Below, in pieces: positions 1-45,091 of a stretch of 64,000 bases of DNA (positions are counted from its first letter, which is position 1; each line of letters starts with the position of its first letter). This stretch comes from Bacteroidota bacterium (GTDB lineage Bacteria; Bacteroidota; Bacteroidia; Palsa-965). A program made the position numbers and the translations under genes. The notes beneath the pieces were generated by a model. That model worked only from the letters and a program-made list of their open reading frames with translations. It did no database searches and was not told the DNA's origin. The stretch spans positions 124,001 through 188,000 of the forward strand of contig JADBYT010000009.1 in the NCBI GenBank assembly GCA_020402865.1, given 5' to 3'.

Positions 1-195
1 GTAAAACCACTCGGCGATGGTGACGAAAAAGATAAACCCGAAAACCTTTGCGTGGATGTGGTGGGCAATCTCCCACGCTGCCTCGACATGATCAGTGCCG
101 AAGAAGTGATACGGAGAATATCACTTTACTATGAGGGCGGAGCTTTAATGTTTAATGATATGAATAAAGTGACACAGCAAACAACACAATCATAG
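1..195 (+). CDS. C-terminal 64 residues of an unidentified protein (partial, runs in from left edge)
   Basis: Frame 1 is open from the first base to a TAG at 193-195, giving 64 residues with no start in the window. The fragment is soluble and mixed in composition, with a VDVVGNLPRCLDMISAEEV segment and a polar TQQTTQS tail. I do not recognise the family. Base composition is closer to the housekeeping genes further right than to the AT-rich segment that begins near 423, so it probably belongs to the chromosome or to another element. A stem-loop at 391-420 lies about 200 bases downstream, but on the strand analysis below it fits the minus strand better. Confidence 0.5.
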   Translation, partial: VKPLGDGDEKDKPENLCVDVVGNLPRCLDMISAEEVIRRISLYYEGGALMFNDMNKVTQQTTQS

Positions 196-390
196 TTGCA
201 GTCTATTCGTTAAAGAAGCTAACCACGGTTATACTTCCTATCAAAATCATAAAATCGGTTTAATATGCATAATTAGTAACACAACAGCACTGGTTATTGG
301 TACTGGTTTGTATAATTGAACAATGCTTCATTATGCAAAAAATCAACCATTTACCAGGAATGCTGAGAGGCTGTATAAAGGGAAAATAAA

Positions 391-420
391 TAACCGGATC
401 AAAATAAATTGATCCGGTTA
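391..420 (-). terminator. Perfect 12-bp hairpin, probable displaced ssrA terminator
   Basis: 391-402 and 409-420 are perfect inverted copies (TAACCGGATCAA / TTGATCCGGTTA) around a 6-base loop. Read on the minus strand the stem is followed by a T-rich run (TTTATTTTCCC). It sits 2 bases from the 20-bp tmRNA-like repeat at 423-442. The real tmRNA terminator (3295-3324) has the same 2-base spacing from its own copy of that repeat. Confidence 0.6.
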
Positions 421-422
421 TC

Positions 423-442
423 TGATCTGTGGAGCCGGAGAG
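423..442. repeat. 20-bp copy of the tmRNA 3' end (candidate attachment site)
   Basis: The sequence TGATCTGTGGAGCCGGAGAG here is identical to 3327-3346, which is the 3' end of the intact tmRNA plus its flank. Similarity stops after this: the rest of the T-arm is absent, so this is not a second RNA gene. The two direct copies lie 2,904 bp apart and bound the AT-rich kinase/regulator segment. This is the geometry left by site-specific integration into the ssrA 3' end. No integrase is visible between the copies. Confidence 0.6.
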
Positions 443-616
443 CAACAACGTTCGAATCTTTTGAGGGAGGATTTGGAGAAATTTTTAAAGGAGGATATTG
501 ATCGCATTACAACATTCGTGCACAAGTCGCACCCTATTCGTTTACAAGCGATTATTACCGACTATATTCTCCAAGTTCATATATGTTTATAGAGTCAAAC
601 CTAGCATAATTCGAAT

Positions 617-2131
617 ATGGAAATTTTCACTTGGGTATTATTTATACTTTCTTTATCAGCAATACTTGGTAGTCTCATTATACTTTATCCAGCGACTGAT
701 TCAGATGATATGGACGACATTAATATTTATACATCGCTAATACCATTTGTTTTTATTGGATTTTCATTCTTTTTGGCTAAATCTCTGCTTGCATTAAATA
801 CTTCTGTTTTGCTTTGGAAAATAGAAAATATCATTGCTATAATAAACTTGGCTATCTGTTCTTTGATAAAAAGAGAACAAATCGAAATTCATTGGAGAAT
901 ATGTGTTGGTTTCTCTATTTTTTTCTCAGCAATTCCATTTATTATAAATGTCAACTTCACAGACATAAATACCCCGTTATCTATCCTAAACGAGTTTAGC
1001 AATAATTATCCAAAGATAATTTTTTCGTTTTGGCTTCCGATTCTAGCTTTGATCCTGTTTAGTTTTATATTATTCGGTTTTACAGATAAATCAAAAAGAA
1101 AAAGACAAGAAGGACTCCTGCTTTATCTTTTAGATAAGGATGGGCGCTCGTCAAATGACTCTTCTTATTACGATACAAATGAAAAGTATAGATTCAGGGA
1201 ATTTGATATTAAAATACGGCAAAACCTATATGAGGAGTTTCAACATATTTTTGAAATAAATTTCAGAAAACTTGAAGAACTAACCGCACGTCAAAGTAAT
1301 TTAATAGAGTCTGTCATCATCAAGATAAACTCCAACTCTAATAATTCTCCAAAACAATCTAACACTGACGACCGAAATATTGCTGAGATAGTAAGGGCAA
1401 TTCATGATATTAATTCAAAGCTAGATATAAAAAATGATGAATCGCTTCATGAAAAGTTAGGGCCATATTCGAATTCCCAAAATCAAAATTTCATTCGTGA
1501 GCTCAATCACTTTCTGATTACTCCACTTTCTCAGATTGAGTCAAAAATCATAATATTTAACCAAAATCCTAGCCTTTTTTTTGAAAATGAAGGTAAATTT
1601 AAAACAGCAGTTTCCACCATTAAAACAAGCGTCGATATATGTAAGGCCGTTCTGTCTGCATATAGGGAATTAGCCTTCGTAACGCCTTCATCTGAATCTT
1701 CACCAGATTTTTTGAGATCTAAATTACAGGACGCAGCAAACTTCTATAAAGAGAGCATGGAAAAAGAGGTTAATTTTATTCTTAATATGCCCGATAAATT
1801 TCCAGCGTATTCGACTAATTATTTATTAGCGGTAATACTTCCATTGGTGGAAAACGCTATAAAGGCCTCTCCTCCAAACAAAAATATTCTAATAGCATTT
1901 CAAACGTTAGACTCAATGATTAATATTAAAATTGAGAACGAGACGCAAAATCCCCTTACAATTAATCAGTTAAATACTCCAGGTTTTTCCTCTAAACATG
2001 ATCACACAGGTACTGGCTTGTTTATTGCAAGGCATTTAGTCGAAGGGCACTATAAAGGATCAATAGCTTTTGAGATAGATAAAAATGTAGTCATAGCTAC
2101 AATTTCGATTCCTTTTAAAAATAGTCAATAA
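617..2131 (+). CDS. Membrane-bound sensor histidine kinase
   Basis: 504 residues. Four hydrophobic segments occupy roughly residues 4-25, 38-62, 95-117 and 134-156, followed by a basic cytoplasmic start (KSKRKRQ), a charged linker and a kinase core. The phosphoacceptor region reads NHFLITPLSQIE with His298, matching the H-box pattern HxxxTPLxxI. The ATPase domain has an N-box (LVENAIKAS, Asn413) and a G-box (HTGTGLFIAR, Gly465/Gly467). No PAS, HAMP or extracellular sensor domain is recognisable, so the signal may be sensed in the membrane. The stop lies one base before the response-regulator start, so the two are a cotranscribed cognate pair. The gene is clearly more AT-rich than the rest of the window and lies between the ssrA-like repeats, which suggests horizontal acquisition. 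Confidence 0.85.
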   Translation: MEIFTWVLFILSLSAILGSLIILYPATDSDDMDDINIYTSLIPFVFIGFSFFLAKSLLALNTSVLLWKIENIIAIINLAICSLIKREQIEIHWRICVGFSIFFSAIPFIINVNFTDINTPLSILNEFSNNYPKIIFSFWLPILALILFSFILFGFTDKSKRKRQEGLLLYLLDKDGRSSNDSSYYDTNEKYRFREFDIKIRQNLYEEFQHIFEINFRKLEELTARQSNLIESVIIKINSNSNNSPKQSNTDDRNIAEIVRAIHDINSKLDIKNDESLHEKLGPYSNSQNQNFIRELNHFLITPLSQIESKIIIFNQNPSLFFENEGKFKTAVSTIKTSVDICKAVLSAYRELAFVTPSSESSPDFLRSKLQDAANFYKESMEKEVNFILNMPDKFPAYSTNYLLAVILPLVENAIKASPPNKNILIAFQTLDSMINIKIENETQNPLTINQLNTPGFSSKHDHTGTGLFIARHLVEGHYKGSIAFEIDKNVVIATISIPFKNSQ

Positions 2132-2132
2132 T

Positions 2133-3140
2133 ATGAATATTATTCCGGAAATTCTGATAGTAGATGATGCTCCAAATGCCGCGAAGGATTTTGGAGATTT
2201 AATTGAGGCTAAATATAGATTCGCTGTAATAACAACTGACAACCCAGCGGAAGCTTTAGAAATAGTAAAAAGATACGCAATTAAAGTAGTTGTTCTTGAT
2301 CAAAGAATGCCTAACAAAAAAGGTACGGATTTATATAGAGAAATCCAAAATATCAACCCTTTGGTCAAGGCTTTAATGTTTAGTGGGGAAGCGGATAGGC
2401 AAGAGGTAAGTGATGCCTATTTATCAGGCTTTCTTTCTTTTCTTGAAAAATCACAAATTGCTCTTCTTCCTGAAAAAGTATTTGAACTTTATACAAGATA
2501 TGAAATTGATTTTGCTAGACAGCATCAAGTAGCCAATTTTCCTATCATTTTATCTGATGAAGTTTCGTTCTTGAGAAAATTTTTCTCGACACAGCATACT
2601 GTCAATTTTCATTTTTTGAGTATAGAAAAAATAAACGATAATTTTATCTTTGACAATAAGTGGATAACAACTGTAGAAGTAAATGCCGGACAAAATTTAG
2701 AATTCGAAGATACTTTTACTTATGAAGAAGCGATAATACTAAACGAAGACTTTGAGCAGAAGATAAAATCGGGTTTTGCTTTCTCAAGTAAAAAACTTGA
2801 TTTATTAAAGATAGGTATTAATACTGAAATTAATAAGAAACTTTCCCTTTCTACTTCAACGAGTAAGATTTTAACAAAAAAGAGAAAGACGACTTATACT
2901 TTACCAGCTCAACCTTCTGATTTGAACTCAAATTATATTGTAAAACGAATTTTCGAGTATGCCCCTGTTTATATGGAATTTAGGGGTGTACTTTGTAAAA
3001 GTTGTACATTTTGTGGTTCATACCAACTAATACAGATTATTTTTTATAAACAAACTAAAAAAATTTCCTCACGACAGACAAATATAATGAAGGATCAAAA
3101 GAAAGAAATTATTGATACAGGAATTACTCAGTATTTCTAA
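2133..3140 (+). CDS. Response regulator with an unrecognised C-terminal output domain
   Basis: 335 residues. Residues 5-120 form a receiver domain: acidic pocket Asp11/Asp12 (ILIVDD), phosphoacceptor Asp56 (VVLDQRMPNKKG), switch Ser near 84 (LMFSGEA) and Lys106 (FLEKSQ). The remaining ~215 residues match no output domain I know. I see no helix-turn-helix, GGDEF, HD-GYP or sigma54 ATPase motif. That part has alternating Ser/Thr-rich strand-like stretches (around 220-265) and then a cysteine cluster CKSCTFC near residue 290. It starts one base after the kinase stop. The output may act through protein or membrane contact rather than DNA binding. Receiver identity is firm; the function of the C-terminal part is unknown. 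Confidence 0.8.
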   Translation: MNIIPEILIVDDAPNAAKDFGDLIEAKYRFAVITTDNPAEALEIVKRYAIKVVVLDQRMPNKKGTDLYREIQNINPLVKALMFSGEADRQEVSDAYLSGFLSFLEKSQIALLPEKVFELYTRYEIDFARQHQVANFPIILSDEVSFLRKFFSTQHTVNFHFLSIEKINDNFIFDNKWITTVEVNAGQNLEFEDTFTYEEAIILNEDFEQKIKSGFAFSSKKLDLLKIGINTEINKKLSLSTSTSKILTKKRKTTYTLPAQPSDLNSNYIVKRIFEYAPVYMEFRGVLCKSCTFCGSYQLIQIIFYKQTKKISSRQTNIMKDQKKEIIDTGITQYF

Positions 3141-3294
3141 AAGTAAAGATGTAAAAATCAACCTAGCATTCGGCTGTCGGTTGGGATGGTACATGTAGAG
3201 GTCAAACGTACTGTGTTTGCCTATCTACTTCATGGGGCACGTTAAGATGGAACTCTGTTTAATATGCAGGGCTATATTTCTCTGATTATATGAT

Positions 3295-3324
3295 AAAAAA
3301 AGCGTCCCTACTGAGGACGCTTTT
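3295..3324 (-). terminator. tmRNA intrinsic terminator (possibly bidirectional)
   Basis: AAAAGCGTCC (3298-3307) and GGACGCTTTT (3315-3324) form a 10-bp stem with a 7-base loop. On the minus strand it ends in a T run and lies two bases past the ssrA repeat copy. On the plus strand it is about 155 bases beyond the response-regulator stop and could also close that operon. 3141-3294 shows no other feature. Confidence 0.7.
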
Positions 3325-3326
3325 AA

Positions 3327-3346
3327 TGATCTGTGGAGCCGGAGAG
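3327..3346. repeat. 20-bp direct repeat inside the ssrA 3' end (candidate attachment site)
   Basis: Identical to 423-442. Thirteen of its bases (3334-3346) are the acceptor stem and start of the T-arm of the intact tmRNA, so integration here would restore a functional tmRNA end. Confidence 0.6.
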
Positions 3347-3696
3347 AATCGAACTCTCGTCCAAACAAGCAACGACTGTGCTTTCTACATGCGTAGCTTC
3401 TTATTCATTGTAGGGAAAAAGCCGGTCCAGAAGCGCACCTACTGTTTCCTTAGTTCCTTAATGTCGTGCAGACGCGGAACCTTACTGCACCAGCCTTATC
3501 TTTTCGGTGCTTCGGATCGGGCCGCCATAAGGCAGGGCTTCCCGCGAAGCATTGCCGGTTAATACCTTGTATTAAGCAGCAAGGGCGTAGTTAGACTCGC
3601 CAGTTGTTGTTTTGAGAATTGAGATTTACGGGCCACTTTCCCAATGCCCGGCATGCTTACACACCCGCCAACCCGCTGTCAAAACCGGTCGGCCCC
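3334..3696 (-). ncRNA. ssrA: Transfer-messenger RNA (tmRNA)
   Basis: tmRNA with SmpB rescues stalled ribosomes and tags the nascent peptide for proteolysis. On the minus strand the 5' end begins GGGGCCGACCGGTTTTGACA at 3696. The 3' end closes with a T-arm (GGACGAGAGTTCGATTCTCTCC) and GGCTCCA at 3334. The 5' GGGGCCG pairs with the 3' CGGCTCC as a 7-bp acceptor stem with one G-U. The CCA tail is not encoded. The tag frame at 3572-3601 reads GESNYALAA then TAA, a typical Bacteroidota tag. Length is 363 nt, normal for the family. A strong promoter lies just upstream (3711-3743) and a terminator just downstream (3295-3324). Confidence 0.95.
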
Positions 3697-44867: not shown

Positions 44868-45091
44868 CGGATTTGCGGCCGGTGTTGTGGAGTAACAAAC
44901 CGGATTTGATGCGCCGGACAGTATGAATTTATAGCCCAGACTGTAATGGAAAGCTTTCCGCGATGCTTTTAAATACAACGATGCGCTTGTAATGGAAGGC
45001 TGGAGCCGAGCGGTTTTTAATTGCTGCCTGAGGTTCGCTCCTGCTTTTTTTTTACATTTTATACCTAAAACAAAATTATTTTGTGTGCAAT

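Follow-up and report, generated by a model that had tools for sequence, protein, structure and literature searches.

Units that are bounded by attachment sites and lack an integrase gene are already known, since some ssrA islands of Dehalococcoides and the cis-mobilizable elements (CIMEs) of streptococci, as defined in PMC5704250, are of this kind. In Dehalococcoides, 15 ssrA islands carry no integration module and have been proposed to be cis-mobilizable (McMurdie 2011, PMC3146451), and in Pseudomonas the tmRNA islands I23, I44 and I55 are flanked by a 14-bp repeat made up of the last 11 bp of tmRNA and a further 3 bp (PMC12595487). With these we compare a 2.9-kb segment beside the ssrA gene of a 4.9-Mb Bacteroidota genome (49 contigs), which lies in a stretch of 64 kb that was analysed as a whole (contig C9:124001-188000, hereafter the window). 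The segment is very probably an ssrA genomic island without an integrase, CIME-like or of the hitcher type, that was integrated site-specifically; the integration event, the enzyme responsible and whatever mobility the island now has are what we infer from it.

Like the Pseudomonas islands, the segment lies directly downstream of tmRNA, is flanked by repeats of the tmRNA end and has no genes for autonomous transfer, whereas I23, I44 and I55 are larger and encode IntY, AlpA and phage-defence cargo, and the segment has no integrase. The Dehalococcoides islands differ in having a serine recombinase, in forming tandem arrays and in inserting at the T-loop; here there is a single island, its core starts at the 3' strand of the T-stem, and tyrosine integrases are found at the same site in relatives. 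As in CIMEs, an attL and an attR site are present at the two ends, and the integration and transfer genes are missing. For CIMEs, however, movement by accretion with a related ICE has been demonstrated, and the studied island has no known partner. Its likeness to Islander-type tDNA islands (PMC4383910) lies in the ends, which are marked by a regenerated, intact tmRNA gene on one side and a displaced 3' fragment in the same orientation on the other. Islander differs in requiring an integrase gene inside the island, and no tyrosine integrase gene is present inside this one; islands such as this are therefore omitted by Islander by design.

The tmRNA gene is intact, encodes the tag GESNYALAA and occupies 3331-3696 on the minus strand (ARAGORN, 3333-3696; Rfam RF00023, 138.5 bits, 3331-3696), so that downstream of ssrA means towards position 1. 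A preliminary description of this DNA had claimed an exact 20-bp repeat of the ssrA end, and TGATCTGTGGAGCCGGAGAG is indeed identical at 3327-3346 (minus strand), where it forms the 3' end of the intact gene and the attL-like junction with the island, and at 423-442 (minus strand), where it forms a displaced, attR-like fragment at the far border. Read along ssrA, this core comprises CTCTC, which is the 3' strand of the T-stem from its 5' edge, then CGGCTCC of the acceptor, the discriminator A, and CAGATCA; the acceptor strand and discriminator together are CGGCTCCA. Because the final approximately 7 nt (CAGATCA) lie at or past the CCA position and extend into the flank, tmRNA accounts for only 13-16 of the 20 bp. 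At 3327 the core has tmRNA on its upstream side and the hairpin AAAAGCGTCC...GGACGCTTTT on its downstream side. The copy at 423 is preceded by unrelated DNA, the adjoining island-side sequence being no continuation of tmRNA, and is followed by a different hairpin, AGATAACCGGATCAA...TTGATCCGGTTATTT. A scan of the whole genome at up to 2 mismatches detected no third copy beyond the two known ones, nor was one found at up to 4 mismatches in 178 kb (C9:10001-188000). A tandem array was rejected on the latter result, and the earlier suggestion that the segment belongs to a tandem island is weakened, there being no third copy within the 114 kb beyond.

That a hairpin terminator of different sequence follows each repeat was likewise borne out, as there are two strong, unrelated stem-loops with T-rich DNA after each. 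The terminator now serving ssrA (3298-3324, minus strand) has an 11-pair stem and a T tail (-17.0 kcal/mol, z -7.2), and the displaced one (388-423, minus strand) has a 15-pair stem and a T-rich tail (-21.4 kcal/mol, z -7.3). Compared with shuffled sequence both are far more stable (z of about -7), and both are directed away from ssrA. The terminator at 3298-3324 would have come in with the island, and that at 388-423 would be the original ssrA terminator; since no empty site was found, this polarity of old and new is taken from the general mechanism.

The segment between the repeats (443-3326) has a G+C content of 32.2%, compared with 48.8% in the right flank, and the lowest-G+C windows of 2.9 kb in the 178 kb are all located at or around it. 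The GC3 values of its two genes are 0.27 and 0.23, whereas 31 long ORFs on the right side average 0.53 and have a minimum of 0.41. The segment had been described as visibly AT-richer and as containing only a kinase/regulator pair and no integrase; the comparison of G+C and codon usage agrees with the former, and the latter stands as well, with two ORFs of note and no integrase similarity. The island is compact, with only 174 bp and 186 bp outside its two intact genes. Foreign composition and the absence of the cargo from relatives, which are expected of an ssrA genomic island, are both observed here.

The first gene (617-2131, plus strand) encodes a membrane histidine kinase of 504 aa, recognised by Pfam (HATPase_c_5, 1e-6; HATPase_c, 6e-6), hydropathy and motifs, with five predicted TM helices, an H-box near residue 298, an N-box and a C-terminal GHKL ATPase. 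The second (2133-3140, plus strand) starts 1 bp past the kinase stop codon and encodes a response regulator of 335 aa (Pfam Response_reg, 4e-17), in which a receiver (residues 1-107) with its aspartate in an LDQRMP motif is joined to a C-terminal domain of some 215 aa that belongs to no recognised family; no DNA-binding domain was recognised in it. Judged by their sequences, the two form a plausible intact two-component pair, and most likely act as an ordinary signalling pair of this type. The N-terminal 310 residues of the kinase have no homologue in 394 other Bacteroidota genomes, and the full-length kinase has no close relative in 58 relatives, six of them from the same genus. The output domain of the regulator (residues 116-335) was compared with 394 other Bacteroidia genomes, phages, plasmids and PDB chains without any convincing match; its weak matches, where inspected, were unrelated or broken frames, and regulator matches in plasmids and genomes are essentially confined to the receiver domain. 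Viral contigs yielded no relatives of either protein and no copy of the 20-bp core, and phage records yielded no relatives of the kinase or the output domain. Single-sequence AlphaFold models of the kinase and regulator were unusable (mean pLDDT 35 and 39). The traits of a phage satellite were looked for and not seen, the island having no packaging, capsid-interference or phage-derived regulatory genes and no phage or viral-contig match. The sole PADLOC match, to SduA (E = 0.0014), is limited to residues 5-65 of the receiver and does not indicate defence; that the pair might serve defence, by analogy with islands described below, is a guess.

Neither an integrase nor an integrase remnant or pseudogene was found within the island, and its sole weak integrase match was discarded, as the query frame starts inside tmRNA. 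The host genome has six places with tyrosine recombinases, and none in the 49-contig assembly is a close relative of the ssrA-adjacent tyrosine integrases; since the best identity to these, over a long stretch, is 32%, the assembly offers no obvious helper.

In relatives the same site looks different. A single terminator follows tmRNA within approximately 70 bp in 10 of them (G001-G004, G006-G009, G011 and G018), this terminator varies by species, and neither terminator of the studied locus was found in the relatives. Upstream of ssrA, four of them (G001, G004, G009 and G011) retain an AlaDh/PNT-family gene, and the DNA downstream of ssrA is variable and without synteny to the studied genome. 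Neither of the two outcomes that the preliminary description had named as contrary to insertion appeared, since a single terminator follows tmRNA in the relatives and the arrangement as a whole is not conserved. A flank query (200-470, 271 bp) matched only itself among 29 relatives, and with one genome compared per species no unoccupied site was found in which tmRNA reads into the 391-420 hairpin. It should be noted that at species distance such a site is unrecognisable, because terminators differ between species and each species is represented by one genome. At the same site in a member of the same genus (G003), a truncated tyrosine integrase of the ssrA type lies about 0.7 kb from ssrA; it covers only profile positions 27-170 within a 250-residue open frame and is 56% identical to the integrase that G137 carries beside ssrA. 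No parent element sharing the ends or the cargo of the island was found in the genomes, phages or viral contigs searched.

To place the locus among others, up to 20 kb downstream of ssrA was screened for copies of the tmRNA tail at 104 Bacteroidia loci, with one genome per species. A displaced ssrA 3' end lies 2.4-18 kb downstream at nine of the 104, the studied one included. In eight of these nine islands the start of the core lies 15-20 nt from the tmRNA 3' end; in G080 it starts later, with 12 nt inside the tail and 26 nt in all. With reversed tails as a control the longest match was 11 nt (102 comparable loci), whereas eight real tails reach at least 13 nt; since the control never exceeds 11 nt, a chance origin of the repeats is excluded. 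Several of the surveyed islands, like the studied one, have their own distinct terminator after each core copy. A tyrosine integrase is present in two of the nine (G032 and G521) and none was seen in the other seven, a ratio that is biased because the survey cannot see islands above 20 kb, in which an integrase is more likely to have been retained. Our in-house profile failed to detect the integrase of G521, which Pfam does recognise, so the absence of integrases at other loci rests also on reading ORFs. Four further loci, G003 among them, have an integrase beside ssrA and no detected displaced end.

The G032 island (17.9 kb, G+C 0.28) encodes its tyrosine integrase about 0.2 kb from ssrA, together with an xis-like gene and a reverse-transcriptase gene recognised by its YADD motif, and the G521 island (7.7 kb) has its integrase at the far end (Pfam, 1.6e-7). 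Among those in which no integrase was seen, G595 (2.4 kb) encodes one TPR protein, G015 (4.4 kb) one nSTAND-like protein, and G313 (4.3 kb; locus L224, 774-4546) a TmtA-like HATPase (PADLOC, E = 6e-142) followed by an AlbA/TIR protein. The remaining three are G080, with metabolic genes (4.3 kb), G106, with polysaccharide-use genes (17.6 kb) and a repeat that is 78 bp long and includes the terminator, and G007, from the same family as the host (9.9 kb, 36% versus 51% G+C), with a LytTR-like sensor/regulator pair and an ABC exporter; gene names for these last three come from reading the sequences and not from a family search. Defence-like genes are thus present in two of the seven integrase-less islands (G313 and G015). 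The two G313 genes, for the HATPase and the AlbA/TIR protein, are a candidate defence cassette. In G099 (L188), G590 (L193), G609 (L210) and G033 (L127), short copies of the tmRNA 3' end lie in tandem within 0.1-0.3 kb and have no island between them, possibly left by past excisions or by small tandem duplications.

The position of the core, the unrelated terminators, the foreign composition and a cargo absent from relatives support the earlier proposal of insertion into the ssrA 3' end, which also fits the nine loci of the same geometry and different sizes, two of them with a tyrosine integrase. In such an event, a tyrosine integrase not encoded by the present segment would have recombined attP with the chromosomal ssrA end, attP carrying a copy of the ssrA 3' end from the 3' strand of the T-stem to a few bases past the gene. 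The incoming element would have restored an identical 3' end to the gene and supplied it with a new terminator, and the old 20-bp end and old terminator would have been displaced 2.9 kb downstream. The expected unoccupied site would read tmRNA, CTCTCCGGCTCCACAGATCA, then GATAACCGGATCAATTTATTTTGATCCGGTTATT directly. The outcome would be a two-gene cargo without an integrase between two potentially functional att sites, able to exit only if a matching integrase were supplied by another element, either acting in trans or, following tandem integration, in cis. It is very improbable that the repeat arose without a site-specific integrase, by recombination of incoming DNA carrying an ssrA 3' fragment with the chromosome or as a transposon target duplication. 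The lack of an integrase in the island would agree with such an origin, as would the existence of short tandem or dispersed tmRNA-end copies without an island in the four genomes named above, but the core start shared by eight of the nine islands matches that of both integrase-bearing ones, there is no transposase, and transposon duplications would not be bound to the ssrA end.

Site-specific integration itself may be read in two ways. We give somewhat less than an even chance to a decayed remnant, in which deletions would have removed the integrase and other genes from what was once a larger ssrA island (a phage, ICE or satellite), leaving just the kinase/regulator cargo flanked by the att sites. 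Decay is visible at this very site in the truncated integrase of the same-genus relative, CIMEs are defined as such decayed elements (PMC5704250), and Dehalococcoides has its 15 ssrA islands without an integration module (PMC3146451). The compactness of the segment, with no trace of an integrase, nevertheless speaks against decay, and decay would require a clean deletion in each of several integrase-less islands (2.4-4.4 kb, with one or two genes) that occur in unrelated genera. This same compactness favours a minimal cassette moved in trans, a 2.9-kb mobile unit borrowing the integrase of ssrA elements that share its core, which we regard as possible and propose tentatively. The excess of seven integrase-less over two integrase-bearing islands among the nine bounded within 20 kb and the defence-like genes of two integrase-less islands (TmtA-like plus AlbA/TIR in G313, nSTAND-like in G015) point in the same direction; against it, the ratio is biased by the invisibility of islands above 20 kb, no shared end motif or helper was shown, and no cassette was met twice. 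It seems unlikely that the Bacteroidia ssrA 3' end is a docking site for one- or few-gene cassettes that never carry an integrase and depend for movement on integrases supplied in trans by passing ssrA-specific elements, much as gene cassettes are served by an integrase encoded elsewhere; their cargo would then range over sensor/regulator pairs, TIR and HATPase pairs, STAND NTPases and single proteins.

In a survey limited to 20 kb and to a single genome for each species, compact units of one or two genes that lack an integrase recur at Bacteroidia ssrA. This recurrence is the aspect worth following up, and no earlier report of it was found in the literature searched. Integrase-less islands at this site may be as common as complete ones. 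Since defence-like genes are present in two of the seven, looking for displaced tmRNA ends is an inexpensive way to find such cargo. Should some of these units move in trans, a genome would hold more mobile DNA than its integrase content indicates.

The surroundings of the island have features of their own. To the left of the repeat the DNA has an intermediate composition, at about 42-48% G+C across some 45 kb, and within this stretch, directly past the displaced ssrA end and to the left of the window, lies a contractile injection system cluster (C9:114086-121564) with genes for sheath, tube proteins, spike/hub, PAAR, gp25 baseplate and Pvc16. The end of a glycosyltransferase-9-like gene (C9:123200-124195) occupies window positions 1-195; this gene is 74% identical to one in G018, a member of a different family, and is absent from 28 other relatives, and has therefore possibly been acquired too. 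Farther to the right, at 44929-45010 on the plus strand, a Flavo-1 RNA match scores 42.3 bits, barely at the gathering score of 42.
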